A stretch of 64,000 nt of DNA, taken from Sinosporangium siamense. GTDB taxonomy: Bacteria > Actinomycetota > Actinomycetes > Streptosporangiales > Streptosporangiaceae. The notes under the pieces are model-generated. The model saw only the letters and a program-made list of their open reading frames with translations. It was not told the origin of the DNA and did no database searches. Positions 10,771-35,192 of the stretch are shown here, one piece after another. The position numbers were made by a program, and so were the translations under genes. The DNA lies in the NCBI RefSeq assembly GCF_016863435.1, contig NZ_BOOW01000012.1:62001-126000 (forward strand), in the 5' to 3' direction. Positions within the stretch are counted from its first letter, which is position 1; each line of letters starts with the position of its first letter.

Positions 10771-11322
10771 TCAGGGGCGGCGGCCGGCGGCCAGGTCGCC
10801 AAGGAGGTCGGCGATCACCAGCTCCTCCTCGGCACCCACGCCTTGCCGCACCATCGCCGCAGACAGTTGCCAGGCCCACGGTGTCTCCTCCACCCTGCCG
10901 GGTAGCGGCGCCGAGGCGGCGACGGCCTGACAGGACGCGCTGTCGTAGCGCCAGGGCACCCAGCCGACACGGGCGCGGACGGCGTTCGCGATGCCGATCC
11001 CGCCCCACTCGAAGTCACCGTGGTAGGCGAACTCGGCCCCGCCGGCGCCGAGCAGGTCGAGCAGCCGCCAGACGGCAGCCGAGGGCCTGCCGTTCACACG
11101 CGCGTTGGGTGGACAGCGCGGCCCGAGCTCGCCGGCTTCCACGGCGACCATCACAGAGTTCTCGCAGATCCGGACCAGGCCGGCGGTGATAGGACCCTCA
11201 TGGCGGCGGAGCTGCCTCAAGGTGGGTGCACACGCTCGCCCGCCGTCCGAGCCGCCGCTCGGCCAGCCGGTCGAGCGGTGCCTTAAGCAAAGGCCAAACT
11301 GAAAGAGATCATCCGTGACCAT
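10771..11322 (-). pseudogene. Remnant of a JetD-like DUF2399/TIGR02679 nuclease subunit
   Basis: A 183-codon frame that matches only the C-terminal Toprim-like DUF2399 part of TIGR02679 proteins: TLRQLRRHEG, then VRICENSVMVAVEAGELG with the expected Glu, PSAAVWRLLDLL, and YHGDFEWGGIGIANAV with the acidic pair, ending PWRYD. Intact proteins are more than twice this length and are encoded with an SMC-like ATPase and two small partners in Wadjet-type anti-plasmid systems. None of those partners is here. The residues before TLRQLRR look random. The simplest reading is a 5'-truncated leftover; an expressed orphan domain is less likely. Confidence 0.7.
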
Positions 11323-11337
11323 GAGGACGGACTACTG

Positions 11338-11850
11338 TTACGCCTTGGCGGAAGCCTGGATGGACTCCACGAGTCTCCACACCGAGGTGGACGGGTTCCG
11401 CATGTGATTCTCCCCTTCAGGATCAGCGGCTTTGGCGCGCCGGCAAGCATCATCGACACCGTCCCGAAAATCGGCGAACCTTGTGTTTCCCTTGCTCCAC
11501 CCCGGAAGCACGCACTTCAACGCCTTCTCGGCATCGCCTGCGGCTTGAAAGGGAGCTCGATGATCCTTGTGGTGAAGTAGGAGCCAGAAGTCAAAGCAGG
11601 GGGTAGAGAGTGCCAGCCGAACCTTGCCCCCCGCCTTCGCAAGCATCCGCCCAGTGAGATTGCTGTCGAGTTCTGTGTCGAGAACACACCACACTTCGTC
11701 ACTTTCGTCATAGTCGTCCAGATTTCGGCGACGGTTGGCCGTACGAAAACTCAGCAGCATGCCGACTGTCACCCCCTCCTGGACGGACTCCCGGGCTACA
11801 TCTCGCAGAATAGCCGCACAGATGATCGCGCGACATGGCGGATCGACTCA
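11338..11850 (-). pseudogene. Remnant of an RloB-family defence protein
   Basis: The frame is open from a stop at 11848-11850 to a TAA at 11338; the first usable start is GTG at 11772 (144 residues). The body is clearly RloB: YDESDEVWCVLDTEL (Asp-rich strand), LALSTPCFDFWLLLHH, and the end NPSTSVWRLVESI. The N-terminal EGxxTE motif of full RloB proteins is missing, so the gene has lost its 5' part. RloB proteins occur in RloAB and other abortive-infection loci, usually with an ATPase (RloA) that is absent here. It lies just past the 3' end of a tRNA gene, next to the JetD remnant. Confidence 0.7.
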
Positions 11851-12100
11851 CAGATCCGAAAGCTTGGTCAATAGCCCGGCAGCCCCCGAGGCGTATCCAA
11901 AGCTGTCTTGCACAGCCCCCGCGAGTTCACCCCCCACTTTGAGTCATCCTTCTCCACTGTGAGGACTCACGGCATGGGCAGGCGAACACGTTCAATGCGC
12001 CAGAAACGCTGACACCGGACATCGCAGGGACTTACTCACCTGCCAGTTGATCACCGGAAAGAGTTGTATACCCTGTTTCCATGATTGGAAACGGGTCCTA
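11851..12100. other. Gene-free stretch between the defence remnants and tRNA-Val
   Basis: No supported gene. GC content is lower than in the flanks and several frames are closed. A 12-base-loop-free hairpin near the tRNA is listed separately. The stretch has the look of eroded mobile-element DNA; no second copy of the tRNA 3' end was seen in the window. Confidence 0.5.
12069..12097 (-). terminator. Hairpin downstream of tRNA-Val
   Basis: On the minus strand ACCC-GTTTCC pairs with GGAAAC-GGGT (one bulged base) around an AATCAT loop, directly after the tRNA 3' end. Position and stem suggest a transcription terminator for the tRNA gene. Confidence 0.55.
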
Positions 12101-12175
12101 TGGTGGGCGCTACTGGGTTCGAACCAGTGACCCCTCGCTTGTAAGGCGAGTGCTCTACCGCTGAGCTAAGCGCCC
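12101..12175 (-). tRNA. tRNA-Val (anticodon TAC)
   Basis: Cloverleaf on the minus strand starting GGGCGCTTAGCTCAG. The 7-base acceptor stem GGGCGCT/AGCGCCC is perfect. The anticodon loop is CTTACAA with anticodon TAC, the T loop is GGTTCGAACCC, and the CCA end is encoded at 12103-12101. The 3' end faces the two truncated defence genes, the usual side for site-specific integration. Confidence 0.95.
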
Positions 12176-15909: not shown

Positions 15910-18657
15910 GTGGCTTCCGGACGCCAGCGTTTCTCGATCATCAGCGACGGCCTACCCAGTCAGTTGCCTGATGTCGATCCCAGCGAGACCCAGGAATGGC
16001 TCGAATCTCTTGACAATGTGGTCAAGACGGAGGGGAGGACACGCGCCCGATATCTGATGCTGCGCCTGCTGGAGCGGGCCCGCGAGCATCAGGTCGGTGT
16101 GCCCGGGCTCCGAAGCACGGACTACATCAACACGATCCCGCCGGAGCGCGAGCCGTGGTTCCCCGGTGACGAATACGTTGAGCGCCGCATTCGGGCATAC
16201 ATCAGGTGGAATGCCGCCGTCATGGTCACCCGGGCCAACGCCCGCACCAACGTGGGCGGGCACATCGCGACCTACGCCTCGGCGGCGTCGCTCTACGAGG
16301 TGGGCTTCAACCACTTCTTCCGCGGCAAGGACCACGGCGAGTCGGGCGACCAGGTCTACTTCCAGGGCCACGCCGCGCCGGGTGTCTACGCACGCGCGTT
16401 CCTGGAGGGCCGTCTCAACGAGGCCCAGCTCGACGCCTTCAGGCAGGAGCTGTCGCACGGCTTCCGCGGCCTGCCCTCTTATCCGCACCCGCGGTTGATG
16501 CCCGACTTCTGGGAGTTCCCGACCGTCTCGATGGGCCTCGGCTCCATCTCGGCGATCTACCAGGCGCGGTTCAACCGCTACCTGCTCAACCGCAAGATCA
16601 AGGACACCAGCCGCAGCCACGTATGGTGCTTCCTCGGCGACGGCGAGATGGACGAGCCGGAGTCGCTCGGCGCCATCGGCCTGGCCGCGCGTGAGGAGCT
16701 CGACAACCTCACCTTCGTCATCAACTGCAACCTGCAGCGGCTCGACGGCCCGGTGCGCGGCAACGGCAAGATCATCCAGGAGCTGGAGTCCTTCTTCCGC
16801 GGCGCCGGGTGGAACGTCATCAAGGTGGTCTGGGGCCGCGACTGGGACCCGCTGCTCGCGGCGGACGTCGACGGCGTGCTGGTCAACAAGATGAACACCA
16901 CCCCCGACGGCCAGTTCCAGACCTACAGCGTCGAGACTGGCGGCTACATCCGGGAGAACTTCTTCGACGACGACCCGCGCCTGCGGCGCATGGTCGAGCA
17001 CATGTCCGACGACGACATCCGCAAGCTGTCCCGCGGCGGACACGATTACCGTAAGGTCTACGCGGCGTTCAAGGCGGCTCGGGAGCACGTCGGGCAGCCC
17101 ACGGTGATCCTCGCGCAGACGATCAAGGGCTGGACCCTCGGCAAGGACTTTGAGGCGCGCAACGCCACGCACCAGATGAAGAAGCTGTCGAAGGCCGAGC
17201 TCAAGGAGTTCCGCGACCGGCTCTACCTCGAGATCCCCGACAAGGACCTCGAAGGCGACCTGCCCCCCTACTACCACCCGGGGCAGGACAACGAGGAGAT
17301 CCAATACATGATGGAGCGCCGGGCGGCGCTCGGCGGCGTGCTCCCGAAACGGGTCAACCGCGCCAAGCCGCTCAAGCTCCCCGGCGACGCGGTCTACGCG
17401 GGCCTGCGCAAGGGCTCCGGCAAGCAGGCCATCGCCACGACCATGGCCTTCGGCCGCCTGCTCAAGGACCTCATGCGTGACAAGGAGATCGGCCACCGCC
17501 TGGTGCCGATCATCCCGGACGAGGCCCGCACCTTCGGTCTCGACGCCATGTTCCCCACCGCGAAGATCTACTCTCCGCACGGGCAGACCTACGAGGCGGT
17601 CGACCGCGAGCTGCTCCTGTCGTACAAGGAGTCGACCGAGGGCCAGATCCTGCACGAGGGCATCACCGAGGCCGGGTCGATGGGGTCGGTGATCGCCGTC
17701 GGGTCGTCCTACGCCACGCACGGCGAGCACATGATCCCGGTCTACATCTTCTACTCGATGTTCGGGTGGCAGCGCACCGCCGACCAGATGTGGCAGCTCG
17801 CCGACCAGATGGGCCGGGGCTTCCTCATGGGCGCGACCGCCGGTCGCACCACGCTCAACGGTGAGGGCCTCCAGCACGAGGACGGCCACACGCCGCTGAT
17901 CGCCTCGACGAACCCCGCGGCGATCTCCTACGACCCTGCCTGGGCGTTCGAGATCTCGCACATCGTCAAGGACGGCATCCGCCGGATGTACGGCGAGCGT
18001 CCCGAGGACGTGTTCTACTACCTCACCGTCTACAACGAGCCCTACCAGCAGCCCGCCGAGCCCGAGGGCCTCGACGTCGAGGGCCTGCTCAAGGGGCTCT
18101 ACCTCTACGCCCCCGCGACGGGCGACCACGCCCGCCGCGCCAACATCCTGGTCTCCGGGGTGGCGGCGCCCTGGGCCCTTGAGGCCCAGCGCCTCCTCGA
18201 CGAGGAATGGGGCGTCTCCGCGAACGTCTGGTCGGCCACCTCGTGGTCCGAGCTGCGCCGCGAGGCACTGGACTGCGACGAGCACAACCTGCTCAACCCG
18301 GACAGCGAGCAGCGCGTGCCATACGTGACCTCCGCGTTGTCGAACGCGAGCGGTCCGTTCGTGGGCGTGAGCGACTACATGAAGGCCGTGCCCGACCAGA
18401 TCGCCCAGTGGGTGCCCGGAGACTGGAGCTCCCTCGGCACCGACGGGTTCGGCCTGTCGGACACCCGGTCGGCGCTGCGCCGCCACTTCCACGTGGACGC
18501 CGCGTCGATCACCCTCGCGGTGCTCACGCAGCTCGCCCGCCGGGGCGAGATCGACGGCGAGATCGTCCGTGAGGCGATCACCCGCTACCACCTCAAGAAC
18601 GGCGTGACCGAGGCGGGCGGCGCCGAGAGCAACGACACCCAGTCGATGGGCCTCTGA
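15910..18657 (+). CDS. aceE: Pyruvate dehydrogenase E1 component, homodimeric type (AceE)
   Basis: 915 residues from GTG at 15910, preceded by GGAAGG; an in-frame GTG at 15832 would add 26 residues without family support. The enzyme decarboxylates pyruvate with thiamine diphosphate and passes acetyl to lipoyl E2. The TPP motif [10 protein letters not shown]... [20 protein letters not shown] is present near residue 240-285, with the transketolase pyrimidine-binding region around 500-700 ([24 protein letters not shown]). Length matches the single-chain E1p family. E2 and E3 are not in the window. A strong terminator follows. Confidence 0.95.
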
Positions 18658-18684: not shown

Positions 18685-18712
18685 GTGCCCCCGGGTCCTC
18701 ACCCGGGGGCAC
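18685..18712 (+). terminator. Terminator of aceE
   Basis: GTGCCCCCGGGT / ACCCGGGGGCAC is a perfect 12-base stem with a CCTC loop, 28 bases after the aceE stop, followed by TTGTGT. Confidence 0.85.
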
Positions 18713-18730
18713 TTGTGTCCGGAGCCACCG

Positions 18731-18756
18731 TTCACAAGAACCGCTCACAAGAACCG
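18731..18756. repeat. Two tandem copies of a 13-base unit
   Basis: TTCACAAGAACCG is followed at once by CTCACAAGAACCG. A minimal tandem duplication in the gap between the convergent aceE and TPR genes; no function suggested. Confidence 0.6.
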
Positions 18757-18871
18757 TTCGTCCCAAAGAATCTCGCGAGACCCGCGTCATACCTCTCGCC
18801 CAGCCCGGTCTCTGTGAGAGAGGCGGCGTGCCTGGAGGGGGCGCGCCGCCTCAACTCACACGGCATTACGG

Positions 18872-20170
18872 TCAATGGGCGCCCATTACGGCAAGAGCCC
18901 GCCTGGCCGCTTCCGCCTCGCCGAAGTGCGGGTCGGTCTTGAGCGCCAGCTGGAGGTGACGGCGGGCCGCCGTCACGTCGCCAAGGGCTCTGGCGATCTC
19001 CCCCCGGTGAAACGCGAACGTCGCGTCCCGCATCCCGGTCCGCGCCGCGCGTCCGGCGTAGGTCATGGCCTCCCGGTGCCGCCCGGCCTTGTGCAGGGCC
19101 CACGCCATCGCGTCCGCGACCTCGACGCTCTCCCGCCGCCCGAGCTCACGCCGCAGGTGGCGGACCGCCACAGCCGGATCGCCGTGCTCGGCGTGGTAGC
19201 GGCCGAGCGTGAGGTCGTCGGGCTCGCCGAGCCTGGCCGTGGCTGCGAGCACCTCGAACTGCTGTCGCGCCTCGCCGGCCCGGCCGAGCGAGTGATAGTA
19301 GCCGCCGAGCTCCAGCAGCACATGCGGCTGCGGCGCCCGGCCCACGGCGTCGGCGTAGTCGCGCAACGCCAGATCGACGCGCCCCAACGCCGCCTGTGAC
19401 CGGGCACGGCCGACCAGGGCGGGCAGATAGCCCGGCACCACCGCCACGGCCTCCGTGAACGCCTGGAGCGCCTCCTTGTGGCGTCCCTGGCGGGCGGCCA
19501 CCTCACCGGCCCGGTGCAGCGTGAGCGCCACGTCTCCGGGCAGCAGGGCGGCGTCCAGCGCGAGCGTGAGGGCCTCGCCGGCGCGCCGGGGGCGCCCGGT
19601 GAGGTCGAAGTAGTGCGCGGCCCTGGTGAACGCCGCGACCCCCGGTGCGTGGTCGAGGAGCCTCTGCAGAGTCTTCCCGGCTTTGCCGTAGTCCCCGAGG
19701 TTCACATAGGCGTCCGTCAGCGCGGCCAGGGCGGGCCCGTGCCGTCCGGCGAGCGCCGTGGCCTTGAGCGCCCAGTCGCGGGCGCCCGCGAAGTCGTGCG
19801 TGACGACGGCCAGCCGGGCCCGCCCCACATAGGCGTCGAGATTGCCGCCGGGCGCGAGTCTGAGCGACTCGGCGAGCACCTCCCCGGCCCGCCTCACCGC
19901 CGCGGGGTCGGCGCTGAGCTGCGCCTTCTCGACGTAGAGGCTGCCGAGCGCCGCCGACGCGGCCGGATCGCCGGGGCGGGCCCTCCGCCGCGCCTCGGCC
20001 TCGGCGATCATGCCGGCCAGGTCACCGGTGCGGGCCTTGGCGAGTATGGCGGGGTCCGCGGCGGGCGCGGGCCTCGCACCGCTCGCGCCGGGCGGCCCGG
20101 CCGGGACGAACAGGATGACGGCCCCCGTCACCACGAGAGCGGCGGGAACGAGCAGCGGCCAACGCCGCAT
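18872..20170 (-). CDS. Secreted or membrane-anchored TPR protein
   Basis: 432 residues from ATG at 20170, with AAGGAG before it. One N-terminal hydrophobic segment (WPLLVPAALVVTGAVILFV) works as a signal or anchor. The rest is helical repeat with TPR-like consensus, for example AALGSLYVEKAQL, ALAALTDAYVNLGDYGKAGKTLQRLL, LVGRARSQAALGRVDLALRDYADAV and ALHKAGRHREAMTYAGRA, roughly ten units. TPR arrays bind protein partners. It is followed by the DUF4331 gene in the same direction, so the two may work together outside the membrane. Confidence 0.85.
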   Translation of the reverse strand: MRRWPLLVPAALVVTGAVILFVPAGPPGASGARPAPAADPAILAKARTGDLAGMIAEAEARRRARPGDPAASAALGSLYVEKAQLSADPAAVRRAGEVLAESLRLAPGGNLDAYVGRARLAVVTHDFAGARDWALKATALAGRHGPALAALTDAYVNLGDYGKAGKTLQRLLDHAPGVAAFTRAAHYFDLTGRPRRAGEALTLALDAALLPGDVALTLHRAGEVAARQGRHKEALQAFTEAVAVVPGYLPALVGRARSQAALGRVDLALRDYADAVGRAPQPHVLLELGGYYHSLGRAGEARQQFEVLAATARLGEPDDLTLGRYHAEHGDPAVAVRHLRRELGRRESVEVADAMAWALHKAGRHREAMTYAGRAARTGMRDATFAFHRGEIARALGDVTAARRHLQLALKTDPHFGEAEAARRALAVMGAH

Positions 20171-20359
20171 CAGCGAACTCCTTAAACCGGGCACGGCGGC
20201 CGATCCACCCCGCGCCATCACAGACAACCGGTACGGCGGAAGCCCGCAGGGGCCGACCCTCCACGAGCTCTTGCCGGCAAGAAGACGGGCTACGACGGAA
20301 GCCCGGCCAGGCCACTCACGGTGGACGCCAAGGGCCAGGCTTCCGCCGTACACCACATG

Positions 20360-21856
20360 TCAGCGGATGTCGGGATAAGCCTCATAGGGGAAGACATCCC
20401 TGATGGCCTTGGCCGGGCCGAGCACCGGGCTGACCCAGGTGGGCAGGAGGCTGCCGCGGCGCAGCGGCTCGCCGGTGCTCAGGCGCACGAACGCCACGGT
20501 GACGTCGTCGGTCAAGCGCCGCCCGTTGGGCCACCCCTGGAGGTCGCCGCCGATGAGGCCGAACCTGTTGGGGCGGGCCGTCACCGGGGTCGTCATGTTG
20601 AGCCTGGTCATCTCGGCGGGGACGATCCGGCTCCGGTCGGCGTCCTGGTTGAGCACGTGGGAGTTGAGGTCGATCTTGATCGGGCCGGTCGCCTTGGCGA
20701 TGCCCGTCAGGAAGAACTGCTCGAAGTCCAGTCGCGGCGTCGCGGGCGGGATCGTCAGCAGGCCGGGCGCGGTCAGCAGCGAGGCGTAGGGCTTGCGGAC
20801 GGCTTCCCTCAGCGCGACGTTGGAACGGTCCTGGTCGGGACTCGACGCGTGGTAGATGTCGCGCAGGGGAGCCGGGTTGACGCTGTCGCCGAACATCGAC
20901 AGCCCCTGCCGCGACACCTGGCGGAAGCGCCGCTCGCCGGGCGTGAGGCTGACGGTCTCACGCGACGAGGTGGCCCAGATGCCCACCACGGGGTTGCGGC
21001 GCACGTCGCCGTTGAGGGCGAGCTCGCTCTTCGGGACCTGGATCGCGATCGAGTGCACGTTGAAGGGCGCGATGAAGTCGAACGGCGGAGCCACCGACAA
21101 CCCCACCCGGGTCAGCGCGATCATGCGGAAGTCGAAGAAGAACGGATCCTTGACCGGCCCGGAGAAGGTCTTGCCGCCGCCCGGCAGCGGCACGATCGCC
21201 TCGTCGAACTTGCGGCGGTAGTCGAGCCCGAGAGGCCACGGCGCGACCGGCGCGTCGTCAAGCAGGACCTTCGCAGGCTGACCCGGGCGGATCAGTTCGA
21301 GTTTGTAGGTCTGCGGGATGATCGTGCGCCTGGCCGCGGGGTTGAGGCGGGCCGCGGAGCCCGGTGAGCCGGATGCCGGGCCCATGCCGTGGTAGGGGTC
21401 GTTGCGCGGGTCGGCGACCGCCCCCTGGGCGCCGAACGCCGGGTAGCCCTTGCTCGGCGGGGCCTTGGGATCGCCGCTGCCGTCCCCGTTGCGATACCAC
21501 CAGCGGTAGGTGAGCTCGGGCTTGCCGTCGCCGGTGCTGTCGAAGTGCAGGTCGTAGAAGCCCCTGGTGGCGAACCGGTAGTACGGCAGGGGCACGACCG
21601 GCAGCTCGAAGGGGATGTAGTTCCAGATGACGGTCACCGTGTCCTGGCGGTCCGGACTGGTGAACGCGTAGAGATCGGTCACGTCCATCTGCGGATCGAG
21701 GATCTGCAGCGGTGAGTCGGCGTGGTTGGAGGCCTCGGCGACCTCGGGCCCAGGGCACGTGAGGAGAGCCGCCGTCAGGAGGGTCCCGGCGGCGGTGAGA
21801 ACGGTCAGGGATCTGGCCGCCCTCCTCCAGGGCCCGCGATCACGAAAAGTCTCCAT
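20360..21856 (-). CDS. Secreted DUF4331 protein
   Basis: 498 residues from ATG at 21856 with GGGGAGA upstream. A signal peptide (RRAARSLTVLTAAGTLLTAALLTCPGPEVAEA) is followed by the family hallmark SNHADSPLQILDPQMDVTDLYAF. The product is exported. DUF4331 proteins are found beside TPR and oxidoreductase genes in many actinomycetes and proteobacteria, but their function is not established. The gene is divergent from a Tat-exported GMC oxidoreductase. Confidence 0.87.
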   Translation of the reverse strand: METFRDRGPWRRAARSLTVLTAAGTLLTAALLTCPGPEVAEASNHADSPLQILDPQMDVTDLYAFTSPDRQDTVTVIWNYIPFELPVVPLPYYRFATRGFYDLHFDSTGDGKPELTYRWWYRNGDGSGDPKAPPSKGYPAFGAQGAVADPRNDPYHGMGPASGSPGSAARLNPAARRTIIPQTYKLELIRPGQPAKVLLDDAPVAPWPLGLDYRRKFDEAIVPLPGGGKTFSGPVKDPFFFDFRMIALTRVGLSVAPPFDFIAPFNVHSIAIQVPKSELALNGDVRRNPVVGIWATSSRETVSLTPGERRFRQVSRQGLSMFGDSVNPAPLRDIYHASSPDQDRSNVALREAVRKPYASLLTAPGLLTIPPATPRLDFEQFFLTGIAKATGPIKIDLNSHVLNQDADRSRIVPAEMTRLNMTTPVTARPNRFGLIGGDLQGWPNGRRLTDDVTVAFVRLSTGEPLRRGSLLPTWVSPVLGPAKAIRDVFPYEAYPDIR

Positions 21857-21864
21857 ATGTGTCT

Positions 21865-21879
21865 CCCCATGTATGGGGG
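21865..21879. promoter_or_regulatory. Inverted repeat in the DUF4331/GMC divergent region
   Basis: CCCCAT-GT-ATGGGG is a perfect inverted repeat 10 bases upstream of the DUF4331 start, in the 109-base divergent gap. It overlaps the region where the ribosome site of the leftward message begins, so it could be an operator or an RNA fold. Confidence 0.35.
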
Positions 21880-21965
21880 TCAGTCTGATCACGTCGAGTG
21901 ATTTAACCATGACGCTCGGTAACTTCAATGTGACCGACTCTCCCTCACGAAGAACCGGAAATCCC

Positions 21966-23822
21966 ATGACCATGCAGATGGATCGCCGTTTCCTGCTCCG
22001 CGCCGGCGCACTCGCGGCCGGCGCCTCCGCCTTCGGCGGAGAGGCCCACGCGGCCCGCCGGCGCGAACCCCGCCCGTCCGAGGGCGGTGAGGCCGACTAT
22101 GTGGTGGTCGGCTCCGGCCCGGGGGGCGCGCCCCTGGCGGCGCGGCTGGCCGCTGCCGGGCACAGCGTCATCGTGCTGGAGGCCGGGCCGCCGGCGGGTA
22201 ACCGTACCTGGTATGACACACCCGGCCTGCACAACCGCGCCTCGGCCGCCGACACCGCCGTCCGGTGGGACTTCTACGTCGAGCAATACACCGATCCGGC
22301 GATGAGCCGCACCAACAGCCAATGGGTGCACGACCGGGGCGTGCTCTATCCCCGCGCCTCGACGCTCGGCGGCTGCACCGCGCACCACGCGCAGATCACG
22401 ATGCATCCCGATCCGTGTGACTGGGCCTTCGTGCAGCAGCTCACCGGGGACGCCTCATGGCGGCCCGAGGCCATGTGGCAACACTGGGAGAGCCTGCTCA
22501 AGTGGAACCTCGTCGAGTTCCCCCCGCTGGTCGAGGCACTCAAGATCGACAGCCAGCTCCGCCGCATCATGAACGCCGCCGTGGACGAGGCGGCCCGCCT
22601 GCCCGGCGGCAACATCATCACCGACCACTACGGCGCCAACAAACCCGAGAACGTCGGCGGCGGCAGGCAGGGCTACCTATACGCCCCGCAGATGAACAGG
22701 GGCGGCAGGCGTTACGGCCCGCGCGAGATCCTGCACACCGCGTCGCAGCAGTTCGCGAGCAGGATGACCATCCGCACCGGCACACTGGCCCGCCGGATCC
22801 TCTTCGCCGGCGGCCCGGACGGGCGGCCCCGCGCCGTCGGGGTGGAGTGCATGGTGGGCGACCACCTCTACGCCGCCTCGCCGCTCGCCTCACCCGGCAG
22901 GGCATACGGCGTGCAGGTCTTCCGCGCGCGCAAGGAGGTCATCCTGGCGTGCGGAGCGTTCAACAGCCCGCAACTGCTGATGCTGTCGGGCATCGGCCCG
23001 CGCGCCCACCTCGCCCGGCACGGCATCCCGGTCGTGGTGGACCTGCCAGGTGTGGGAGGCAACCTCCAGGACCGCTATGAGGTGTCCATCGTCACGCACC
23101 ACCGGCCCTTCGCTCTGCTCGCCTCCTGCTCGTTCGGCAAGCCGCTCGACCCCTGCCTCGCCGCGGACAAGGGGCTCGGCCTGTTTGGGTTCAGCCAGTT
23201 CAGCCCATATTCCATCAGCGCCGGCACCGGCGGCGTCAAGCGCCGCTACGGCGCCGACCCCCGGGCCCAGCTCTACGTCTTCGGCGCGCCGGCCGACTTC
23301 CGCGGCTACAAGCCAGGCTTCGACTCCGGCTATGTGAACGACAAGTTCTCCTGGCTTGTGCTCAAGGGCTACGCCGCCTCACGCATGGGCACCGTGCGTT
23401 TGCGGTCGGCCGATCCCGTGCATCCGCCGTACATCAACTTCCGCAAGTTCGACGACGGCGCCGGCGGGCACGAGGACGTCGCCGCCGTGGTCGACTCGAT
23501 GGCGATGGTGCGGCGCATCAACACCGCCGCCGGAGCCGGCACGGAGGTGTGGCCCGGCCCGCAGGTGTCCACTCCCGAGCAACTCGCCCAGTGGGTGCGC
23601 AAGGAGGCGTGGGGCCACCACGCCTCCTGCTCCAACCCCATCGGCCCCGACGGGGACCCGGACGCGGTCCTCGACAGCCGCTTCCGCGTGCGCGGCACTA
23701 TCGGCCTGCGTGTGGTCGACGCCTCGGCTTTCCCACGCATCCCGGGGCTTTTCATCTGGGCCCCCACGGCGATCATCTCGGAGAAGGCCGCCCACGACAT
23801 CCTGAGCGAGGCCCGCCTGTAG
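21966..23822 (+). CDS. Tat-exported GMC-family oxidoreductase
   Basis: 618 residues from ATG at 21966; nearby ATGs at 21972 and 21978 are also possible. A twin-arginine signal (MDRRFLLRAGALAAGASAFGG) directs folded export. The FAD-binding Rossmann motif VVVGSGPGGAPLAARLAAAGHSVIVLEAG (about 43-71), GMC signature 2 (GAFNSPQLLMLSGIGP) and the C-terminal VVDASAFPRIPGLFIWAPTAIISEKAA are all present. The active-site His pair is in WGHHASCSNPIG. Family members oxidise alcohols, sugars or sterols; the substrate is unknown. It is divergent from the secreted DUF4331 gene. Confidence 0.88.
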   Translation: MTMQMDRRFLLRAGALAAGASAFGGEAHAARRREPRPSEGGEADYVVVGSGPGGAPLAARLAAAGHSVIVLEAGPPAGNRTWYDTPGLHNRASAADTAVRWDFYVEQYTDPAMSRTNSQWVHDRGVLYPRASTLGGCTAHHAQITMHPDPCDWAFVQQLTGDASWRPEAMWQHWESLLKWNLVEFPPLVEALKIDSQLRRIMNAAVDEAARLPGGNIITDHYGANKPENVGGGRQGYLYAPQMNRGGRRYGPREILHTASQQFASRMTIRTGTLARRILFAGGPDGRPRAVGVECMVGDHLYAASPLASPGRAYGVQVFRARKEVILACGAFNSPQLLMLSGIGPRAHLARHGIPVVVDLPGVGGNLQDRYEVSIVTHHRPFALLASCSFGKPLDPCLAADKGLGLFGFSQFSPYSISAGTGGVKRRYGADPRAQLYVFGAPADFRGYKPGFDSGYVNDKFSWLVLKGYAASRMGTVRLRSADPVHPPYINFRKFDDGAGGHEDVAAVVDSMAMVRRINTAAGAGTEVWPGPQVSTPEQLAQWVRKEAWGHHASCSNPIGPDGDPDAVLDSRFRVRGTIGLRVVDASAFPRIPGLFIWAPTAIISEKAAHDILSEARL

Positions 23823-23925
23823 GCGTGTTCAGCACGGACTCCACCGACCCCGGCCGGTCGAGGTTGATACCGGTTCACCCCTGGTCGAACCCGACCGGCC
23901 GAGGCCACCCTCGGCCGGACTCACT

Positions 23926-24035
23926 CGCTCCCGCTCCCGTTCGCTCTCGCTCCCGCTCTCGCTCCCGCTCTCGCTCCCGCTCTCGCTCCCGCTCTCGCTC
24001 CCGCTCTCGCTCCCGCTCTCGCTCTCGCTCTTCGC
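23926..24035. repeat. Hexamer/dodecamer microsatellite (CGCTCC/CGCTCT)
   Basis: About 110 bases made only of CGCTCC and CGCTCT hexamers in alternation, giving a 12-base period (CGCTCTCGCTCC) over most of the length. It lies between the GMC gene and the ArsR promoter. Read in frame it would give Arg-Ser repeats on the plus strand and Glu-Ser-Gly-Ser on the minus strand, but no gene with a ribosome site covers it. The array is probably length-variable. Confidence 0.9.
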
Positions 24036-24055
24036 GATTGCCACGAGGACCCCTG

Positions 24056-24085
24056 TTGACTGCCGTCCGCCAATGGCTCTATTAT
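24056..24085 (+). promoter_or_regulatory. Promoter of the ArsR/SRPBCC operon
   Basis: TTGACT (24056-24061) and TATTAT (24080-24085) separated by 18 bases make a near-consensus sigma-70 type promoter. The operator palindrome begins inside the -10 box, which fits repression by blocking RNA polymerase. Confidence 0.7.
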
Positions 24086-24119
24086 CAACATATCGGTTGA
24101 TAAAGAGATTGGTTGATAA
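24082..24119. promoter_or_regulatory. ArsR-type operator: inverted repeat plus half-site
   Basis: TTATCAAC (24082-24089) and GTTGATAA (24096-24103) are a perfect 8-base inverted repeat with a 6-base spacer. A third half-site, GTTGATAA, follows at 24112-24119 just before the ATG. The arrangement overlaps the -10 box and points to autoregulation by the ArsR-family protein encoded next. Confidence 0.7.
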
Positions 24120-24121
24120 GC

Positions 24122-24466
24122 ATGGCGGTTGACGAGGCGGAGGAGCGACTGGACCGTGCGTTCACCGCGCTGGGCGATCCCGTCCGGCGCGCGCTGATCG
24201 CCCGGCTGTCCCGCGGCGACGCGACCGTGAACGAACTCGCCGAACCGTTCGCCATCACCAAACAGGCGGTCTCCCGGCACCTCCACGTGCTGGAGGCGGC
24301 GGGCCTGATCACACGCAGCAAGGACGCCCAGCGGCGCCCCTGTCACCTGAACGCGGCCGCGCTGGAGGAGCTGACCAGCTGGATCGACACCTACCGGCTG
24401 GAGGTCGAGCGGCGCTACCGCACGCTCGATGCGGTCCTGGAAACCATGGAGGAGCAGGAGAAATGA
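24122..24466 (+). CDS. ArsR-family HTH regulator
   Basis: 114 residues from ATG at 24122. The winged helix is clear: ALGDPVRRALIARLSRGDATVNELAEPFAITKQAVSRHLHVLEAAGLITRSKDAQRRPCHLN. No metal-binding ELCVCDL motif is present, so it belongs to the SRPBCC-linked subgroup rather than to metal sensors. It is translationally coupled (ATGA) to the SRPBCC gene, a very common pair. The palindromic operator over its own promoter supports autorepression. Confidence 0.92.
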   Translation: MAVDEAEERLDRAFTALGDPVRRALIARLSRGDATVNELAEPFAITKQAVSRHLHVLEAAGLITRSKDAQRRPCHLNAAALEELTSWIDTYRLEVERRYRTLDAVLETMEEQEK

Positions 24467-24930
24467 ACGAGACCACGATCACCGCCCAGCCCGGCACCCC
24501 GTTCATCGAGGTCGTCCGGGAGTTCGACGCCCCCCGCGAGCGGGTCTTCCGCGCGTGGACCGACCCCGAGCTGGTCCCGCAATGGCTCGGCCCGCGCGGC
24601 ATGACGGTGAAACTGTTCGAACTCGACGCGAGCCCCGGCGGCAGCTACCGCTACATCCACGCCGACGACCGCGGAGAGTACGGCTTCCGCGGCGTCTTCC
24701 ACAACGTCGTCCCGAACGAGCTGATCGTCCAGACGTTCGAATACGAGGGCGCGCCGAACCAGGTCAGCCTGGAGACGATGACGTTCGAGGACCTCGGCGG
24801 CGGCCGCACCCGGGTGCACGGCCGCACCGTGTACACAACGGTCGAAAGCCGCGACGCGATGGTCGCAAGCGGCATGGAGCGCGGCCTGCGCGACTCGATG
24901 GAGCGGCTGGACGAACTGCTGACCCGATGA
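24463..24930 (+). CDS. SRPBCC (AHSA1-type) domain protein
   Basis: 155 residues with the START-like pattern VVREFDAPRERVFRAWTDPELVPQWLGPRGMTVKLFELDASPGGSYRYIH and the C-terminal helix MEWGL-like SGMERGLRDSMERLDELL. The fold is a hydrophobic-ligand binding cup or an Hsp90-cochaperone-like AHA1 domain. The start overlaps the ArsR stop. Ligand and role unknown; the pair probably senses and handles one small molecule. Confidence 0.9.
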   Translation: MNETTITAQPGTPFIEVVREFDAPRERVFRAWTDPELVPQWLGPRGMTVKLFELDASPGGSYRYIHADDRGEYGFRGVFHNVVPNELIVQTFEYEGAPNQVSLETMTFEDLGGGRTRVHGRTVYTTVESRDAMVASGMERGLRDSMERLDELLTR

Positions 24931-25153
24931 CCGGTCTTGCCTGAGCGGATTCCCTCCCTCGCCTGCCTGGTCACCGACTTCTCGACGACCCGGTCGTGCC
25001 CCAGGGCCGCCGCGCCCTCCACCTCGCATACCTGGTCCGGCGCCAGCCGTGTGAGCGACGGACACGTCGGTGGCTCCGGCCTCAAAGATCCCGTGAACTC
25101 ATTCCCGCGAAACACCAGGTGACTGTGATGTCGCCGACGGTTACTGTGGTCGA

Positions 25154-25300
25154 GTGGCCGACGACGAGCTACCCCCCGTCTGCGACATATGTCTCGGCGC
25201 AGGGGGCGAGTGGATGCCTAAGAATGGCACTAAGGACTCCCACGAGGAGTGGGTGCCATGCAAGCCCTGCGAGGGCACTGGGCGGCGGAGACACACGTGA
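25154..25300 (+). CDS. 48-residue DnaJ-type zinc-cluster peptide
   Basis: A small GTG-started frame: VADDELPPVCDICLGAGGEW, then a short acidic stretch, then WVPCKPCEGTGRRRHT. It has the CxxCxGxG pattern twice (CDICLGAG and CPCEGTG), which is the zinc-binding repeat of the DnaJ central domain. The stop overlaps the next start (GTGA), so the two are translationally coupled, and the next protein carries the same kind of motif. This supports it as a real gene despite its size. Confidence 0.65.
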   Translation: MADDELPPVCDICLGAGGEWMPKNGTKDSHEEWVPCKPCEGTGRRRHT

Positions 25301-25614
25301 CCGATCCCATCACCTGTCCCGAATGCGGCGGCCGCAAACAGCAACGCCTCGGAACGTTCTATTTCCGGTGCCGCTTCTGCAAGGGCCTCGGCTGGGTCGG
25401 CGGCCCCAACGAACCCGCCGAAACCAACCACACCCCACCAAAACAAGCACCCCCAGTGTGGGAGCGTTCGCAATGGCGAGACCCCATGGTCGCGTCAACC
25501 TTCCCCTGCCGCTACTGCCTCGGCGCCCAAGTCGTCACCAGCGTCGACGAAGCAGCCCGCACAATGCTGACAGTCCCCTGCCAATGTGCGGCGAAGGCCG
25601 GCGGGGCGGATTAG
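25297..25614 (+). CDS. Zinc-cluster protein with DnaJ-like CxxC repeats
   Basis: 105 residues from GTG at 25297, chosen because it overlaps the stop of the upstream peptide. It has CPECGG, CRFCKGLGW and CRYCLG plus CQC near the C-terminus, four Cys pairs for two zinc ions. The middle is Pro/Asn-rich. Many actinomycetes encode such small zinc proteins without known function. Together with the 48-residue peptide it looks like a split DnaJ-type zinc module, without any J domain. Confidence 0.75.
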   Translation: MTDPITCPECGGRKQQRLGTFYFRCRFCKGLGWVGGPNEPAETNHTPPKQAPPVWERSQWRDPMVASTFPCRYCLGAQVVTSVDEAARTMLTVPCQCAAKAGGAD

Positions 25615-25712
25615 ACGCGGGGATTTACCGGACACGCGCATTAAGTAGCGGCAGAGACCGGGGTGAGGTAAGGATTGGGGCGTCTCGACGTCACCGCCTT
25701 GGGAGGTAGCGA

Positions 25713-26183
25713 ATGCGCAGCGCCCGGTTCCTGGTCGCCGCTCTGGCACTGATGGTGGCATCGGGGTGCACCTCCAAACCTTCGGCGACCGAGGCGATCG
25801 CCGAGCTGGAGCAGGATGTGCGCCGGTTGGAATCGGATGATCTGTTCAAGAGTCCGAGTATGAGTCTGCGTATCTTGCAGCGGCCCGACAAGGATTTGCC
25901 CTGCGGAGAGAACGGGTTCAAGCGTGTATTGCGAGCGACTGCAAATAAGGAGCGCGGCAATGAAGATCCGGACTCCCACCTCGATGGCGCCCAGAGGGTT
26001 ATGGAGACGACTCTGTCCCGACACTTGGGATACAAGCTTGAGCAGGACATAAGTCAAGGGGATGCGCCGGAGGGACGATTCATCTACGGGACTAAGGAGA
26101 CCGGTGTCGTGGTCACTGTGCACGTGGCGTCGGAGGCCCCGACCTGGCACTTGCATGCGCAGACCGTCTGCATGCCGCGTTGA
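25713..26183 (+). CDS. Small lipoprotein
   Basis: 156 residues with GGGAGGT before the ATG. The signal peptide ends at the lipobox V-A-S-G-C19. The mature part is helical at first (TEAIAELEQDVRRLESDD), then has two Cys (LPCGENGFKR and the C-terminal TVCMPR) that could form a disulfide. Not recognised as a named family. It converges, 11 bases apart, with the large WXG-like gene, so a joint envelope role is possible but unproven. Confidence 0.78.
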   Translation: MRSARFLVAALALMVASGCTSKPSATEAIAELEQDVRRLESDDLFKSPSMSLRILQRPDKDLPCGENGFKRVLRATANKERGNEDPDSHLDGAQRVMETTLSRHLGYKLEQDISQGDAPEGRFIYGTKETGVVVTVHVASEAPTWHLHAQTVCMPR

Positions 26184-26194
26184 GTAATAGTTTC

Positions 26195-28165
26195 TCAGTC
26201 TGAGTTCTGCAGCCGATGCTCGGCCAGATTGCTGGTATGGGCGCGAGAGGAATACTCGATCTTGTCGTCGAGGTCGCGATTCTTGTCCATCCATGCCTCG
26301 TAGGCGTTCAACTTACGCTGAAGTGCCTGTTCCCATTGTTGGCCGTTCTTAGCCTCCTGTCTGGCCTCGGTCGTCAGCTCCTCGTATGTTTTCAGGTTGC
26401 CGGTCACCGGGTTGACGAGTTCCTTCGGTGGGTCACTCGCCGGATAACCTCCGGCATGGAGGAGGTAGGCCATGTCGTACATCATGCGCCTGCTCACATC
26501 GGACTGTTTCTTGTCGGCGGCTTCGACCTGGGTTTCGAAACTGTCGGCCCAAGCGTCTGAGGCGGTGCTGACGACGTATGCCTGGACCAACGCCCATCCG
26601 AGTTCTGCGGCCTTGCCTACGATGGGGACGCCGTCGAGGAGCAAGGCGAAGCTGTTCTTGGTGACATCGCGAGCCAAGCCGGCGACGGCGTCCTCCTCTC
26701 CCAGCACCTCTTTGGTTGCCTTGAACTGGATGCTGCCGAGGTCGCCGAACGTTGTAGAGAGACCACGGAAATAGTCGGTTTTTCCCTTCGCGTCCAGGCG
26801 GGCTGCCGATATCAGCAGGTCATGGCGGAGCCCTGCCACAGTCTTATTGAACTCATCGACGGCGCGGTCCTCACCGGCAAACGTCTTGAAGAACCGGTAA
26901 GTATCGCCCGGGCTGAGGTAAAAGGCGGGAGTGACTCCTGGCCAGTCGATCCAGTGCTTCGGGGCATTCATGCCGGAGATGCGATCGGTGGCCTTGTCTG
27001 TGCGTCCACCCGAAAGCAGTTCATGGACGTAGGAGTTCGCTATCACTCCCATGGAGTCTTTAGCCGATCTGGGTAGTGTGGCGCCGAAGGAGCCTGCGGC
27101 GAGCAGCGTGTCCAGGGCGAAGGCGGCAGCGGCTGGGCTGTGGTGCCCGGCCTTTTCCTCGGTGGCCTCGCTGCCCGCAACCAGGACTCGGCCGAACACG
27201 TCGCCGATGCTCTCGCCACCGGTGCGGCCGTAATCGAAGAGTCGCTTCATCTTGTCGACCTGGCCTATTTTCAGATCGGCCCCTCCGGCTTTGGCGAACG
27301 CGTCCCGTACGGCGGTGCCGTCGTCGCCGAGAACCTCCAATCCCAGGACGACCAGATCTGACGGCAACCCATACGCCTTGAGCTGAGTGAATCCGGAGGT
27401 ATGCCAGTTCTGCTTGGGGTTCCTCATGAAGTCGTCCAGGACGAGGGAGCGGGCTGCCGCACTGCGCACGTCTGAGGGGACATTGGCGCCTCTGAGGAGA
27501 GCAAGCCGCTGCCACGCCACCTGCTTGTCGTGCGTGGGCTTCACCAGTGCCTCGCGCACCTTGGTGAAGGCTGGGATGTGGTTGGGGGCGCGGAGGGCTG
27601 CGCCGAGGGCGGAGCTGAAGGCGGCGAGGTCTTGTTTGGCGGTCTTGCTGCCCGTTGTGGCGATGAGGTTGGGCAGGGTGTCGCGGACTTGTGGGGACAG
27701 GAAGGCGAAGAAGGCTGCGGCGGCTTGGGGGTTGTTGGCCAGTTGGGCGACTCTGCCGGTGTGGTTGTGGATGAGTTGGCCCTGGAACTCCCCGCTGTAC
27801 TTGGTGGTGAAGATGTCCTGGTTGAACATGGTGGCGAGCCCGCGGGCGGTTTCGAAGTCCTCTATCTGGTCGGGGAGGTGGAGGAGTGATGACGCGGAGC
27901 CGCCGGCTGCCGCGGGTTCCTGTGCTCCCTTGCCGAGGGCGTTGATGAGTTCGATCCGGCCTTGCAGCATGGAGACTTGTTTTCCGCCCCAGTCGGCGAT
28001 GTCGGCGATCTCTTGCAAGACGGAGGTGCTGACTCCGGTCTGACGGAACTTCGTGTCGAATTCGCGGCAGGAAGCAGCGAGGTTTGCCGCAGATCTCCGA
28101 AGCGATTCGGCCACTCGTCCCATCTCGTCGGGATCGATGCCGCAGAACCCGGCATCGGATGTCAT
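26195..28165 (-). CDS. Large WXG100-like helical protein of unknown function
   Basis: 656 residues. The N-terminal 100 residues look like a WXG100/ESX-type hairpin (DEMGRVAESLRRSAANLAASCREFDTKFRQTG... ADWGGKQVSMLQGRIELINALGKG). The long middle is helical without motif matches I recognise, and the end is coiled and charged (LTTEARQEAKNGQQWEQALQRKLNAYEAWMDKNRDLDD). No signal peptide. It follows a small WXG-type gene by 27 bases on the same strand. The pair resembles substrates of type VII (ESX) secretion or toxin-like LXG proteins, but there is no toxin domain that I can name and no EccC-type motor in the window. Confidence 0.75.
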   Translation of the reverse strand: MTSDAGFCGIDPDEMGRVAESLRRSAANLAASCREFDTKFRQTGVSTSVLQEIADIADWGGKQVSMLQGRIELINALGKGAQEPAAAGGSASSLLHLPDQIEDFETARGLATMFNQDIFTTKYSGEFQGQLIHNHTGRVAQLANNPQAAAAFFAFLSPQVRDTLPNLIATTGSKTAKQDLAAFSSALGAALRAPNHIPAFTKVREALVKPTHDKQVAWQRLALLRGANVPSDVRSAAARSLVLDDFMRNPKQNWHTSGFTQLKAYGLPSDLVVLGLEVLGDDGTAVRDAFAKAGGADLKIGQVDKMKRLFDYGRTGGESIGDVFGRVLVAGSEATEEKAGHHSPAAAAFALDTLLAAGSFGATLPRSAKDSMGVIANSYVHELLSGGRTDKATDRISGMNAPKHWIDWPGVTPAFYLSPGDTYRFFKTFAGEDRAVDEFNKTVAGLRHDLLISAARLDAKGKTDYFRGLSTTFGDLGSIQFKATKEVLGEEDAVAGLARDVTKNSFALLLDGVPIVGKAAELGWALVQAYVVSTASDAWADSFETQVEAADKKQSDVSRRMMYDMAYLLHAGGYPASDPPKELVNPVTGNLKTYEELTTEARQEAKNGQQWEQALQRKLNAYEAWMDKNRDLDDKIEYSSRAHTSNLAEHRLQNSD

Positions 28166-28192
28166 GACTGCTCCCTCTTCTCTGCTCGCCTG

Positions 28193-28501
28193 CTATGCAT
28201 TTCCGCCGAGTTCGCGACGTATGGCCTCGGCCTGGGACTCGGTCACCATGGCGGGGTGCCGGCGTAGTTCGTCCTCGATGGCGTTGGATAGGTGTTGTGC
28301 GAGCCGGCGTAGTCGGTGGTGGCGGTCTTCGAGTTCGTCGCCCCATCTGGTGGCTGTAGGCCCGGTCCAGACCTTTCCCGATCGCATGGCCGACGAGGCG
28401 GGTTGATAGGCCTGGCGTACGTCGCGGGCCCAGTTGTCGGCTTCCATGAGGAGAAGCTTCAGCTTCGCGTGCCGAGGATTGGGCACCATGCGTTCGGCCA
28501 C
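28193..28501 (-). CDS. Small WXG100-like protein
   Basis: 102 residues from GTG at 28501. Two helices flank the turn KVWTGPTATRWGDEL, matching the W-x-G hairpin turn of ESX proteins: MEADNWARDVRQAYQPASSAM before it and LEDRHHRLRRLAQHLSNAIEDELRR after it. These proteins form dimers with a partner; the partner is probably the 656-residue product downstream. Confidence 0.75.
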   Translation of the reverse strand: MAERMVPNPRHAKLKLLLMEADNWARDVRQAYQPASSAMRSGKVWTGPTATRWGDELEDRHHRLRRLAQHLSNAIEDELRRHPAMVTESQAEAIRRELGGNA

Positions 28502-28741
28502 GCGAGCCCCGTCCTCTCTAGGTATGGAAAAGCCAATAGCACAGTAGACGTATAGGGACGGTGTTGACAGCTCTAAGGCTCCCCGGGGAAGTTCTGCGAT
28601 GTTGCGCCATGTAATGCCGGTTTTGTCCTCTGATTGAGTGGCAGGGGAGCGCGTCGATGCAGCCGCTCACCGAACGGCGGAGTTCGTCTGAGTCGTAAGA
28701 GATGGACGCAGGGGCGGGCGGCGTCGCTCGGGGGCCGGGTG

Positions 28742-29161
28742 ATGAGGAAGGGCGCCCTGTTCGCGGCCCGCGCGGACAGGCTTTACCGGCTGTTCCAGAC
28801 GCACGGTTCACTCGCCGACCTCGACCCGCGGACGGCGGACGGGATCGAGGAGGGCTACTTCCGCCGTGGCTTCGACGAGGTGTGGCGCGACGCCCGGTCC
28901 CGCCACCTGGCCGCCGGCCGGGAGGAGGAGAGCGGCGGACCTGAAGCGGCGCGTGGCCGTGGTCTTCCGGTCGTACTTCGAGGAGGTAACGACGGCGGCC
29001 CTCACCGGCCGAGCGGACGACCGGGTGAACTGCCAGGTCCCCTACGGCCCCACAATGGGCGCTTTCAAGCGCTTCGCGGAAAACACCCCCTCAGCCGACC
29101 GCCACAAGCGGCACGTGGACACCGTCGCCGAAAGCTTGATGACCGAAGCCACAAGCTCCTG
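28742..29161 (+). pseudogene. Frameshifted C-terminal remnant of a PfaD-family enoyl reductase
   Basis: Two overlapping frames together match the end of PfaD proteins, the TIM-barrel FMN enoyl reductases of polyunsaturated fatty acid and trans-AT polyketide synthesis. Frame one (from ATG 28742) gives KGALFAARADRLYRLFQTHG and YFRRGFDEVWRDARSRHLAAG. After a shift near 28925-28940, frame two gives RAADLKRRVAVVFRSYF, VNCQVPYGPTMGAFKRFAEN and RHVDTVAESLM. The FMN-barrel N-terminal 400 or so residues are missing. It is a dead fragment; no polyketide or PUFA synthase lies nearby. Confidence 0.65.
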
Positions 29162-29264
29162 ACCTGATCCGACTGGCGTCGGCGACGGCGCGGCTGAGCA
29201 TTTTCCGCTTATAGTCTGGATGCTTGTACAGAGACGGCTGAAAACTGAATACAAGGAGCCCCCC

Positions 29265-30782
29265 TTGTCCAATGCCGAGCAAATTGCCCAGATATTTCGG
29301 ATAGCTCTAGAGGTTCTTCGCGAGGCAGGCCTTCCGCTGGGCCCCGACCGGGTGAGGGCAGCGGTCTCCCGGCAGGTCGACATCTCAGCGGAGCTTCAGG
29401 CGCCCGACAGACATGGGCAGGCACGCTGGTGGGCACAGCTCGGATTCCGCACCGGTGAAGCGGCCGCGATCGGTTGGATGAGCAAGAGAAACGGCTGGTC
29501 GCTCACGGACGCCGGAGTCCGGGCGCTGGCGGATTTTCCGGGTTCTCACCTCTACCGAGAGCTGGTGCGTCAGTATCGCGCCCGCAGGACCCCGCTGTCC
29601 ACGCCGACCGGCGAGCCGTCTCCGTTCGAGCAGTTTCAACAGAACCTCGAATACGCTCGGCAGCTCGTGCGTGGAGGTCAGAATCTGGAGCGCCTCAAAG
29701 TAGGCGCATTCGATGTGAGCGATCTCTATCGAGCCGCCTGGACACAGTCGGTCGCCGCCCTGGACCACTGGATAACCCGGGAGCTTATCGATCGGGCGGT
29801 GCTGCTCGCGATCAATCCGCAGGTGCCACGCCCGCCGAAGTTCGACAAGTTGCCCATTCCTGTGGGGTTGTTCGAGCGGATCCATCATGGACGTGAGTCC
29901 TTGGAAGAGGTTTTCCGGGCACACCTGGACCAGGTCTTCGGGTTCATGACCTTTCAAAACCTCGAGAAGATCAAGGAAGGCCTCGCCCATGTGAGCACGG
30001 TGAAGCTCTGGGTGAAGGTCGCCGAGATCCTGACCGATCAAGACCCGACGGCACCGGTCACCCAGGACAAGGTGCGGCGCAGGCTGGAAGAGATCGCCTG
30101 GCGCCGCAACAACATCGCTCACACCGCCGACCACGACCCGGAGCATCCCGGGCAGAAGATGCCCATCACCTCGCGTGACGCGGAGGAGACGCTGTCCTGG
30201 CTCGAGTCGACCGCGATCGCCATCCAGTTGGCACTCGGAGACCCGCTCCCGGCCGAGGACTACAGTGCCGTTCCCAGCGGTGCGGGTGCCCTGGGGGAGG
30301 TTCCTCAGGTCGCGTCGCGGTCGCCTTTGACGCGCGGAAACGGCAAACAGGAGAGCTTTCTCCATGCCCTTGAGACATACACTCATCCGGAGGTGTCGAC
30401 CACCCTTCTGGCCGTCTACCGGCATGCGGAAAGTCATCCCGCGTTCCGCGGATACCGGCACTACTGTGGCGAGGCCGCGCACCCTTCGGCCACCGCGTGG
30501 TTCAGCCTCGGGTCCGATGAAGCCGCCGTCTGGGGCATCTACACAGGGGTGAGCAAGTCAGTGCTGACGATCAACTTCGAGTGGATGCGCAACCGGGGGG
30601 CCGACCGGGGCCGGTTGGCGCGGGTGAACGAGGCGCTTGCGGGCCTTCCGGGGTGGACGGATGTGTCCGAGCGGCTTGCCGCGGCCGACTACGGTAAGCG
30701 GCCGTCCATCGGCCCTGTCGCGCTCTCCCATCCCGATGCTGCGCGGACGGTGATCTCGGCGCTTGACGAGCTGTTGAAATAG
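29265..30782 (+). CDS. Mrr_N-HEPN candidate RNase of defence type
   Basis: 505 residues from TTG at 29265: AAGGAG lies six bases before it, and a -10-like TATAGT at 29210 puts the ATG at 29220 too close to the transcription start. Residues 1-100 resemble the Mrr N-terminal winged helix (IALEVLREAGLPLGPDRVRAAVSRQVD... WSLTDAGVRALADF). Residues about 150-330 are a HEPN domain ending in RRNNIAH (R281-x4-H286), the RNase motif of HEPN toxins. The C-terminal 120 residues (YRHYCGEAAHPSATAWFSLG... INFEWMRNRG) are a conserved-looking module I do not recognise. A single-gene abortive-infection RNase is likely by analogy. Confidence 0.75.
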   Translation: MSNAEQIAQIFRIALEVLREAGLPLGPDRVRAAVSRQVDISAELQAPDRHGQARWWAQLGFRTGEAAAIGWMSKRNGWSLTDAGVRALADFPGSHLYRELVRQYRARRTPLSTPTGEPSPFEQFQQNLEYARQLVRGGQNLERLKVGAFDVSDLYRAAWTQSVAALDHWITRELIDRAVLLAINPQVPRPPKFDKLPIPVGLFERIHHGRESLEEVFRAHLDQVFGFMTFQNLEKIKEGLAHVSTVKLWVKVAEILTDQDPTAPVTQDKVRRRLEEIAWRRNNIAHTADHDPEHPGQKMPITSRDAEETLSWLESTAIAIQLALGDPLPAEDYSAVPSGAGALGEVPQVASRSPLTRGNGKQESFLHALETYTHPEVSTTLLAVYRHAESHPAFRGYRHYCGEAAHPSATAWFSLGSDEAAVWGIYTGVSKSVLTINFEWMRNRGADRGRLARVNEALAGLPGWTDVSERLAAADYGKRPSIGPVALSHPDAARTVISALDELLK

Positions 30783-30816
30783 CCGCTCGTCCAAGGACGA
30801 GGACGAGGACGAGCGG
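30783..30816. terminator. Hairpin between convergent genes
   Basis: CCGCTCGTCC / GGACGAGCGG is a 10-base perfect stem around a 14-base loop, directly after the HEPN gene stop and before the FhuF-like gene end. It can end transcription from both sides. Confidence 0.6.
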
Positions 30817-30831
30817 CCGGGGAAGCGCCGG

Positions 30832-31608: not shown

Positions 31609-31610
31609 GC

Positions 31611-35187: not shown

Positions 35188-35192
35188 GGCCG

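Follow-up and report, generated by a model that had tools for sequence, protein, structure and literature searches.

The region between accD, which ends at 10702, and an intact tRNA-Val(TAC) gene of the soil actinobacterium Sinosporangium siamense is best read as the end next to the tRNA of a stack of integrated elements, which has decayed and been reshaped by deletion and by host rearrangement; we assign a probability of about 0.83 to this reading. The analysed window of 64,000 bases comprises bases 62001-126000 of contig C12 (261,689 bases) in a 99 % complete genome of 84 contigs. Predictions with ARAGORN, Pfam and PADLOC bore out the preliminary description, according to which remnants of two different defence families, RloB and JetD, face the 3' end of the tRNA gene, an end that points to lower coordinates (Table 1). 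The Pfam and PADLOC scores of both remnants were far beyond chance. The locus is a new example of the accretion and decay of actinomycete integrative and conjugative elements (AICEs) carrying defence cargo, an ordinary process with unusual detail. A literature search on this locus turned up no paper.

Table 1. Features of the scar between accD and tRNA-Val(TAC); positions are those of the window
Feature	Position	Strand	Evidence and remarks
tRNA-Val(TAC), intact	12101..12175	-	ARAGORN; orthologous tRNA loci; hot-spot repeats; landing site, attL side
AICE-type attachment arm directly 3' of tRNA-Val	12026..12101	-	hairpin GTTTCC-AATCAT-GGAAAC inside CCC..GGG; decayed GTGA-type repeats
Leader of rloA and rloA codons 1-9, with start ATG at 11760	11729..11830	-	79 % over 102 bp to the rloA start of Acrocarpospora corrugata
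Chimeric 140-codon ORF, rloA codons 1-9 and rloB	11338..11760	-	DNA alignment to intact operon; Pfam RloB
AICE tyrosine-integrase gene fragment, N-terminal part, pointing to tRNA-Val	11285..11330	+	80.4 % over 46 bp, E=5e-5
C-terminal part (DUF2399/Toprim-like) of Wadjet type II jetD	10771..11259	-	profile matches; DNA homology; 14/84 invariant positions lost
accD-to-scar junction, joint of host rearrangement	10703..10770		gene-order comparison with relatives

The listed open reading frame 11338-11772(-) matched Pfam RloB (3.1e-20, model positions 53-195 of 195) and PADLOC AbiLii (9.2e-16). An intact counterpart was present in Acrocarpospora corrugata (G043), where an rloA-rloB operon directly follows the same tRNA-Val; behind this tRNA, the genes for ROK, zinc-ribbon, peroxiredoxin, DUF3052 and aceE are arranged in the same order as in the window. 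The A. corrugata RloB is full length; the RloA there matched AbiLi (2.9e-91) as well as AAA_21. The contig breaks off about 0.2 kb beyond rloB. Two blocks of this operon aligned to the window, the rloA leader and start (11830-11729) and rloB (11718-11364, 78 % over 355 bp). Between the blocks the window lacks about 1,472 bp of the operon, and the joint is located at a short imperfect repeat. From the rloA start codon a frame of 140 codons is open, which passes after nine rloA codons in frame into rloB near codon 81. Both genes had been regarded as 5'-truncated; the JetD remnant is indeed a C-terminal part, whereas the RloB remnant (RloB') is a fusion caused by an internal deletion. The fusion lacks the CEGxTE motif (CEGETE) of the RloB N-terminal part, which together with the later DxD we take to be the Toprim metal site. 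Neither a complete RloB domain with CEGxTE nor an RloA-type AAA ATPase beside it is thus present in the window. With the RloA-RloB or AbiL (AbiLi-AbiLii) systems the window shares the C-terminal part of RloB, 74-77 % identical over the whole match to the RloB of intact cassettes of Acrocarpospora, Sphaerimonospora and Microbispora, and the very start of RloA, but rloA is deleted after its ninth codon, RloB has lost its first 80 residues, and the frames are fused. RloB' breaks 3 of 56 conserved sites, while three close intact copies break 3-5 of 59-61, one distant intact copy 19 of 75 and the stump of Sinosporangium album 5 of 56. An excess loss of conserved residues relative to the close intact copies was not observed, hence RloB' probably either broke recently or is still constrained.

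The second remnant (JetD', 10771-11322(-)) matched Pfam DUF2399 (2.7e-34, model positions 4-152 of 152) and PADLOC JetD2 (1.2e-46, positions 238-420 of 423) and therefore represents the C-terminal part of JetD. DNA similarity of 70-79 % to jetD homologues of the family begins near 11259 and continues as far as the stop at 10771. Since the bases 11285-11330 are derived from an integrase gene on the plus strand, the listed 183-aa reading frame does not start with JetD codons. Both remnants were thought to keep their C-terminal motifs. In JetD' conserved residues have changed, among them GDFDW to GDFEW. Intact JetD has an N-terminal (DUF3323) and a Toprim-like C-terminal domain (DUF2399), of which only the latter is left, and the stump is flanked by accD and the integrase scrap instead of JetA, JetB and JetC. 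This DUF2399 part is what the window shares with Wadjet type II (JetABCD), an anti-plasmid SMC system, unlike which it has neither JetC nor the JetD N-terminal part. JetD' is about 59-65 % identical to the JetD of its closest relatives within the family, of which at least one is encoded in an intact JetABCD operon; on contig C84 of A. corrugata, the jetD homologue is part of an intact operon of Wadjet type II with JetA, JetB, JetC and JetD. Residues were counted on six close intact homologues out of 18 aligned. JetD' breaks 14 of 84 sites invariant among the six, each of which breaks 1-6 of 85-90 invariant sites when compared to the other five; JetD' has thus been drifting for some time. With all 18 homologues, the window breaks 4 of 18 invariant sites and 17 of the others break 0-3 of 18-21. 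S. album contains a second decayed JetD of the genus, a short fragment that does not lie at the tRNA (G001, contig C26 145462-145680; 64 % over 73 residues) and that breaks 10 of 28 invariant sites in the count with all 18. The partners of both remnants are lacking, as had been noticed: the 99 % complete window genome held no match to RloA or JetC at E<=1e-6, JetA and JetB are not adjacent to JetD' at the locus, and queries with RloB and JetD retrieved from the genome solely the window copies.

Traces of an integrated element were found at three places. The 75 bases 3' of tRNA-Val had a summed score of 219 against eight AICE arms, a value reached by none of 2000 shuffles (mean 100, maximum 157). 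Between RloB' and JetD', the 46-bp fragment matched the integrase gene of a relative (G103), with the E value calculated against the whole contig, and it has the same orientation toward tRNA-Val as in G103. Integrases of this family end at the 3' end of tRNA-Val in G103 (64 %) and G184 (55 %). Copies of the tRNA 3' end are present in the window genome at C12 53127-53180 (54 bp, 98 %) and 56616-56658 (43 bp, 95 %), yet apart from and inverted relative to tRNA-Val, owing to rearrangement. The arm adjoining the first copy is AICE-like (score 242, 0 of 500 shuffles), whereas the second copy has a flank that is not AICE-like (its score was reached by 131 of 500 shuffles), which would be expected if this copy is an outer att site. 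By the first copy lies a dead integrase gene (C12 53311-54219) that has lost most of the C-terminal catalytic stretch, with the final residues kept out of frame; the lost stretch presumably held the catalytic tyrosine. Beside the att sites, a tyrosine integrase is thus represented by the fragment and by the pseudogene. A HATPase and a GntR gene are also located between the two copies, and the RepSA-type and FtsK-type genes of the AICE presumably were lost.

In the relatives, 13 of 32 tRNA-Val loci had at least one same-strand downstream repeat of the tRNA 3' end within the stretch covered. Seventeen repeat-bearing stretches, from 13 genomes chosen for downstream repeats, yielded 78 proteins by a crude length and codon-position score that may miss genes. 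Among these were RepSA (4), phage integrase (4), FtsK (3) and GntR (2), the make-up of AICEs (PMC3218068). Defence families were few (10 PADLOC families at 1e-8, best PifA with 6.7e-69), hence the site is used by AICEs that occasionally carry defence genes and is in general no dense defence island. The tRNA-Val as AICE site with 46-nt repeats, the accretion and the decay of AICEs have already been described in a Streptomyces population study (PMC9513070). The window and its relatives resemble the cases reported there and in PMC3218068 in the integrase facing the tRNA 3' end, the repeats of about 45 bp of that end, GntR and RepSA/FtsK-type genes in the relatives, tandem elements and remnants lacking functions. 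Unlike in the published accretion cases, the tRNA-proximal remnant in the window consists of stumps of defence genes, and a host rearrangement has split the stack. An unusual metabolic cargo was observed in Microbispora sp. H13382, whose repeat-bounded tRNA-Val island has a second aceE-like gene (69 % identical, L171 14464-17382). S. album has a 33-base copy of tRNA-Val bases 15-47 located 73 bases upstream of the tRNA (L091 9468-9500).

The rearrangement was recognized by gene order (REARRANGEMENT): in G001, G005, G009, G015 and G022 a flank L is followed by the block from accD to pucR, the X genes, the block from aceE to tRNA-Val and the islands, a pattern from which G016 differs. The window genome differs from these five relatives (contig C12 51-81 kb, window about -11000 to 18700): the accD-pucR-X block is inverted, as is the aceE-tRNA block, and between L and X lie the dead integrase gene and the two att copies. 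The two inversions explain the location of the att copies 17-21 kb away in opposite orientation and the contact of accD with JetD'. An excision of both blocks as a circle and their inverted reinsertion would fit the block order as one option. Beyond aceE, about 18 kb of the window (18700-37150) have no counterpart at the same place in S. album; they include a GMC oxidoreductase-like gene, an ABC transporter and a stretch of lower G+C content at about 25-31 kb. The tRNA-Asp called by ARAGORN at 17178-17278 lies within the aceE reading frame and is probably a false call.

The preliminary description proposed a search for the intact island at the same tRNA in close relatives, and the outcome supports this description: A. 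corrugata has an intact rloA-rloB there. A Jet operon or gene near tRNA-Val was not found in any other genome of the 250 sampled from the family. RloB matched at 1e-20 in 27 of the 250 genomes and the tRNA at 1e-22 in 132; the lists, compared by eye, placed both within 2 kb of each other in no more than three genomes, that of the window and those of S. album and A. corrugata. JetD was detected at 1e-25 in 53 of the 250, with the window genome as the sole case near tRNA-Val; as the contigs are drafts, these counts could have missed cases. The rloAB cassettes of Sphaerimonospora (G050) and Microbispora (G222) were rejected as further cases, since their tRNA-Val genes are on other contigs, in G050 not at a contig end; stops noticed in the RloA of G222 proved to be outside its reading frame. 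In Sphaerimonospora thailandensis, rloAB adjoins a DISARM-like methylase and a restriction-type gene (L094 208-8558). The short proteins of the window, whose presence in relatives would have refuted the preliminary description, are encoded neither in A. corrugata nor in S. album: the operon of the former is intact, and in the latter (G001, the only genome of the genus sampled besides the window genome) an RloB stump lies about 131 bp after the same tRNA-Val and starts about ten residues later in RloB than RloB', with no rloA sequence recognised there. Between S. album and the window genome, seven host genes have a synonymous divergence (dS) of 0.34-0.65, but RloB has one of about 2.4, a value near saturation, which rules out that the two stumps originate from one insertion inherited from the common ancestor. 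A small RloB tree did not group the two Sinosporangium species, with weak support throughout (30-51).

The following course of events would account for these observations. At least one AICE used the 3' end of tRNA-Val(TAC) for its integration, and the tRNA-proximal AICE, or the locus at that time, may have held an rloA-rloB (AbiL-like) cassette together with jetD of Wadjet type II, the other genes of the jet operon presumably included. Later the integrase gene would have been cut down to the short fragment, and jetABC and the N-terminal part of jetD would have been lost. A deletion between short imperfect repeats probably took away codons 10-470 of rloA and, in rloB, everything up to about codon 80, giving the in-frame fusion. 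A host rearrangement would have carried the outer att copies and a second AICE remnant 17-21 kb off and set accD beside the jetD stump. The decayed integrated island of the preliminary description is therein kept in its AICE part, on the evidence of arm, integrase fragment and att copies; the Jet part is our inference, and the host rearrangement has to be added as a force that shaped the scar. Several observations are at odds with a decayed stack: the integrase fragment is just 46 bp long, the outer att copies are inverted to tRNA-Val and need the rearrangement, an intact element with both rlo and jet systems was not found among the genomes, and RloB' is without excess residue loss. Moreover, the flanks of rlo in the other two genomes are not clearly AICE arms: 67 of 500 shuffles reached the score after the A. 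corrugata tRNA-Val, and 1 of 500 that after the S. album tRNA-Val, albeit at a low score of 142. The rlo genes of these two species may therefore not have been brought by an AICE.

Alternatively, the fragments would be debris that landed near tRNA-Val by rearrangement, without integration at the tRNA. We consider this unlikely. The joint of accD and jetD is a rearrangement breakpoint, and no relative sampled has jet at this tRNA, but the AICE arm at tRNA-Val, the integrase fragment between the stumps and the rloAB at the same tRNA in another genus speak for integration at the site. An error of assembly or sequencing is extremely improbable: the draft genome has 84 contigs, but the locus is situated inside a contig of 261,689 bases, is colinear with S. 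album on both sides, and shows an in-frame fusion at an imperfect short repeat, as a real deletion would give.

The open 140-codon frame with the original start region, the 3 of 56 changed conserved residues, equal to intact copies, and the similar, separately acquired C-terminal RloB stump in S. album would suit a working small protein, consisting of the rloA start region and the DxD-side half of RloB and acting alone or inhibiting related systems; the JetD stump would perhaps be another such protein. This is quite improbable, as the Toprim-like domain has lost its CEGxTE half, the genome is without an RloA partner, the S. album stump has another start and no rloA sequence, and JetD' is clearly degraded; the conservation of RloB' is equally well explained by a recent break. 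Conserved small genes were rejected as main reading for the different stump of S. album, the full-length RloB in three other genera and the 14 of 84 sites broken in JetD'. A yet bolder proposal, to which we give very little credence, regards the fusion as a newly born and retained gene that converted a two-gene nuclease defence into a single protein of 140 residues under the rloA start region, with the stump of S. album indicating that the DxD-side half is repeatedly kept on disarming.

Within the decayed stack, the remnants most likely do not act in defence now, because neither motor nor sensor parts are left and the two effectors are truncated. Intact Wadjet is an SMC-driven plasmid nuclease according to a review (PMC10586767) and occurs in 42 % of Actinobacteria genomes (PMC10482375). 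Intact RloAB would act as an ATPase-regulated nuclease by analogy to OLD-family ATPase-Toprim systems (PMC10568477, in which RloB is not treated). The pattern agrees with a published model in which defence islands are built and eroded by integration and decay at hot spots (PMC8791490). As in that model, clustered defence genes were left by repeated insertion and partial deletion at a single hot spot; unlike in the model as given there, the defence genes at the window locus are themselves debris. The turnover at a defence hot spot becomes readable here, with rloAB intact, separately broken and rearranged at the same tRNA across genera, and the edges of the deletion are known to within about 10 bp. 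Solitary JetD or RloB genes counted by their domains can be stumps, and such counts should be regarded with caution.
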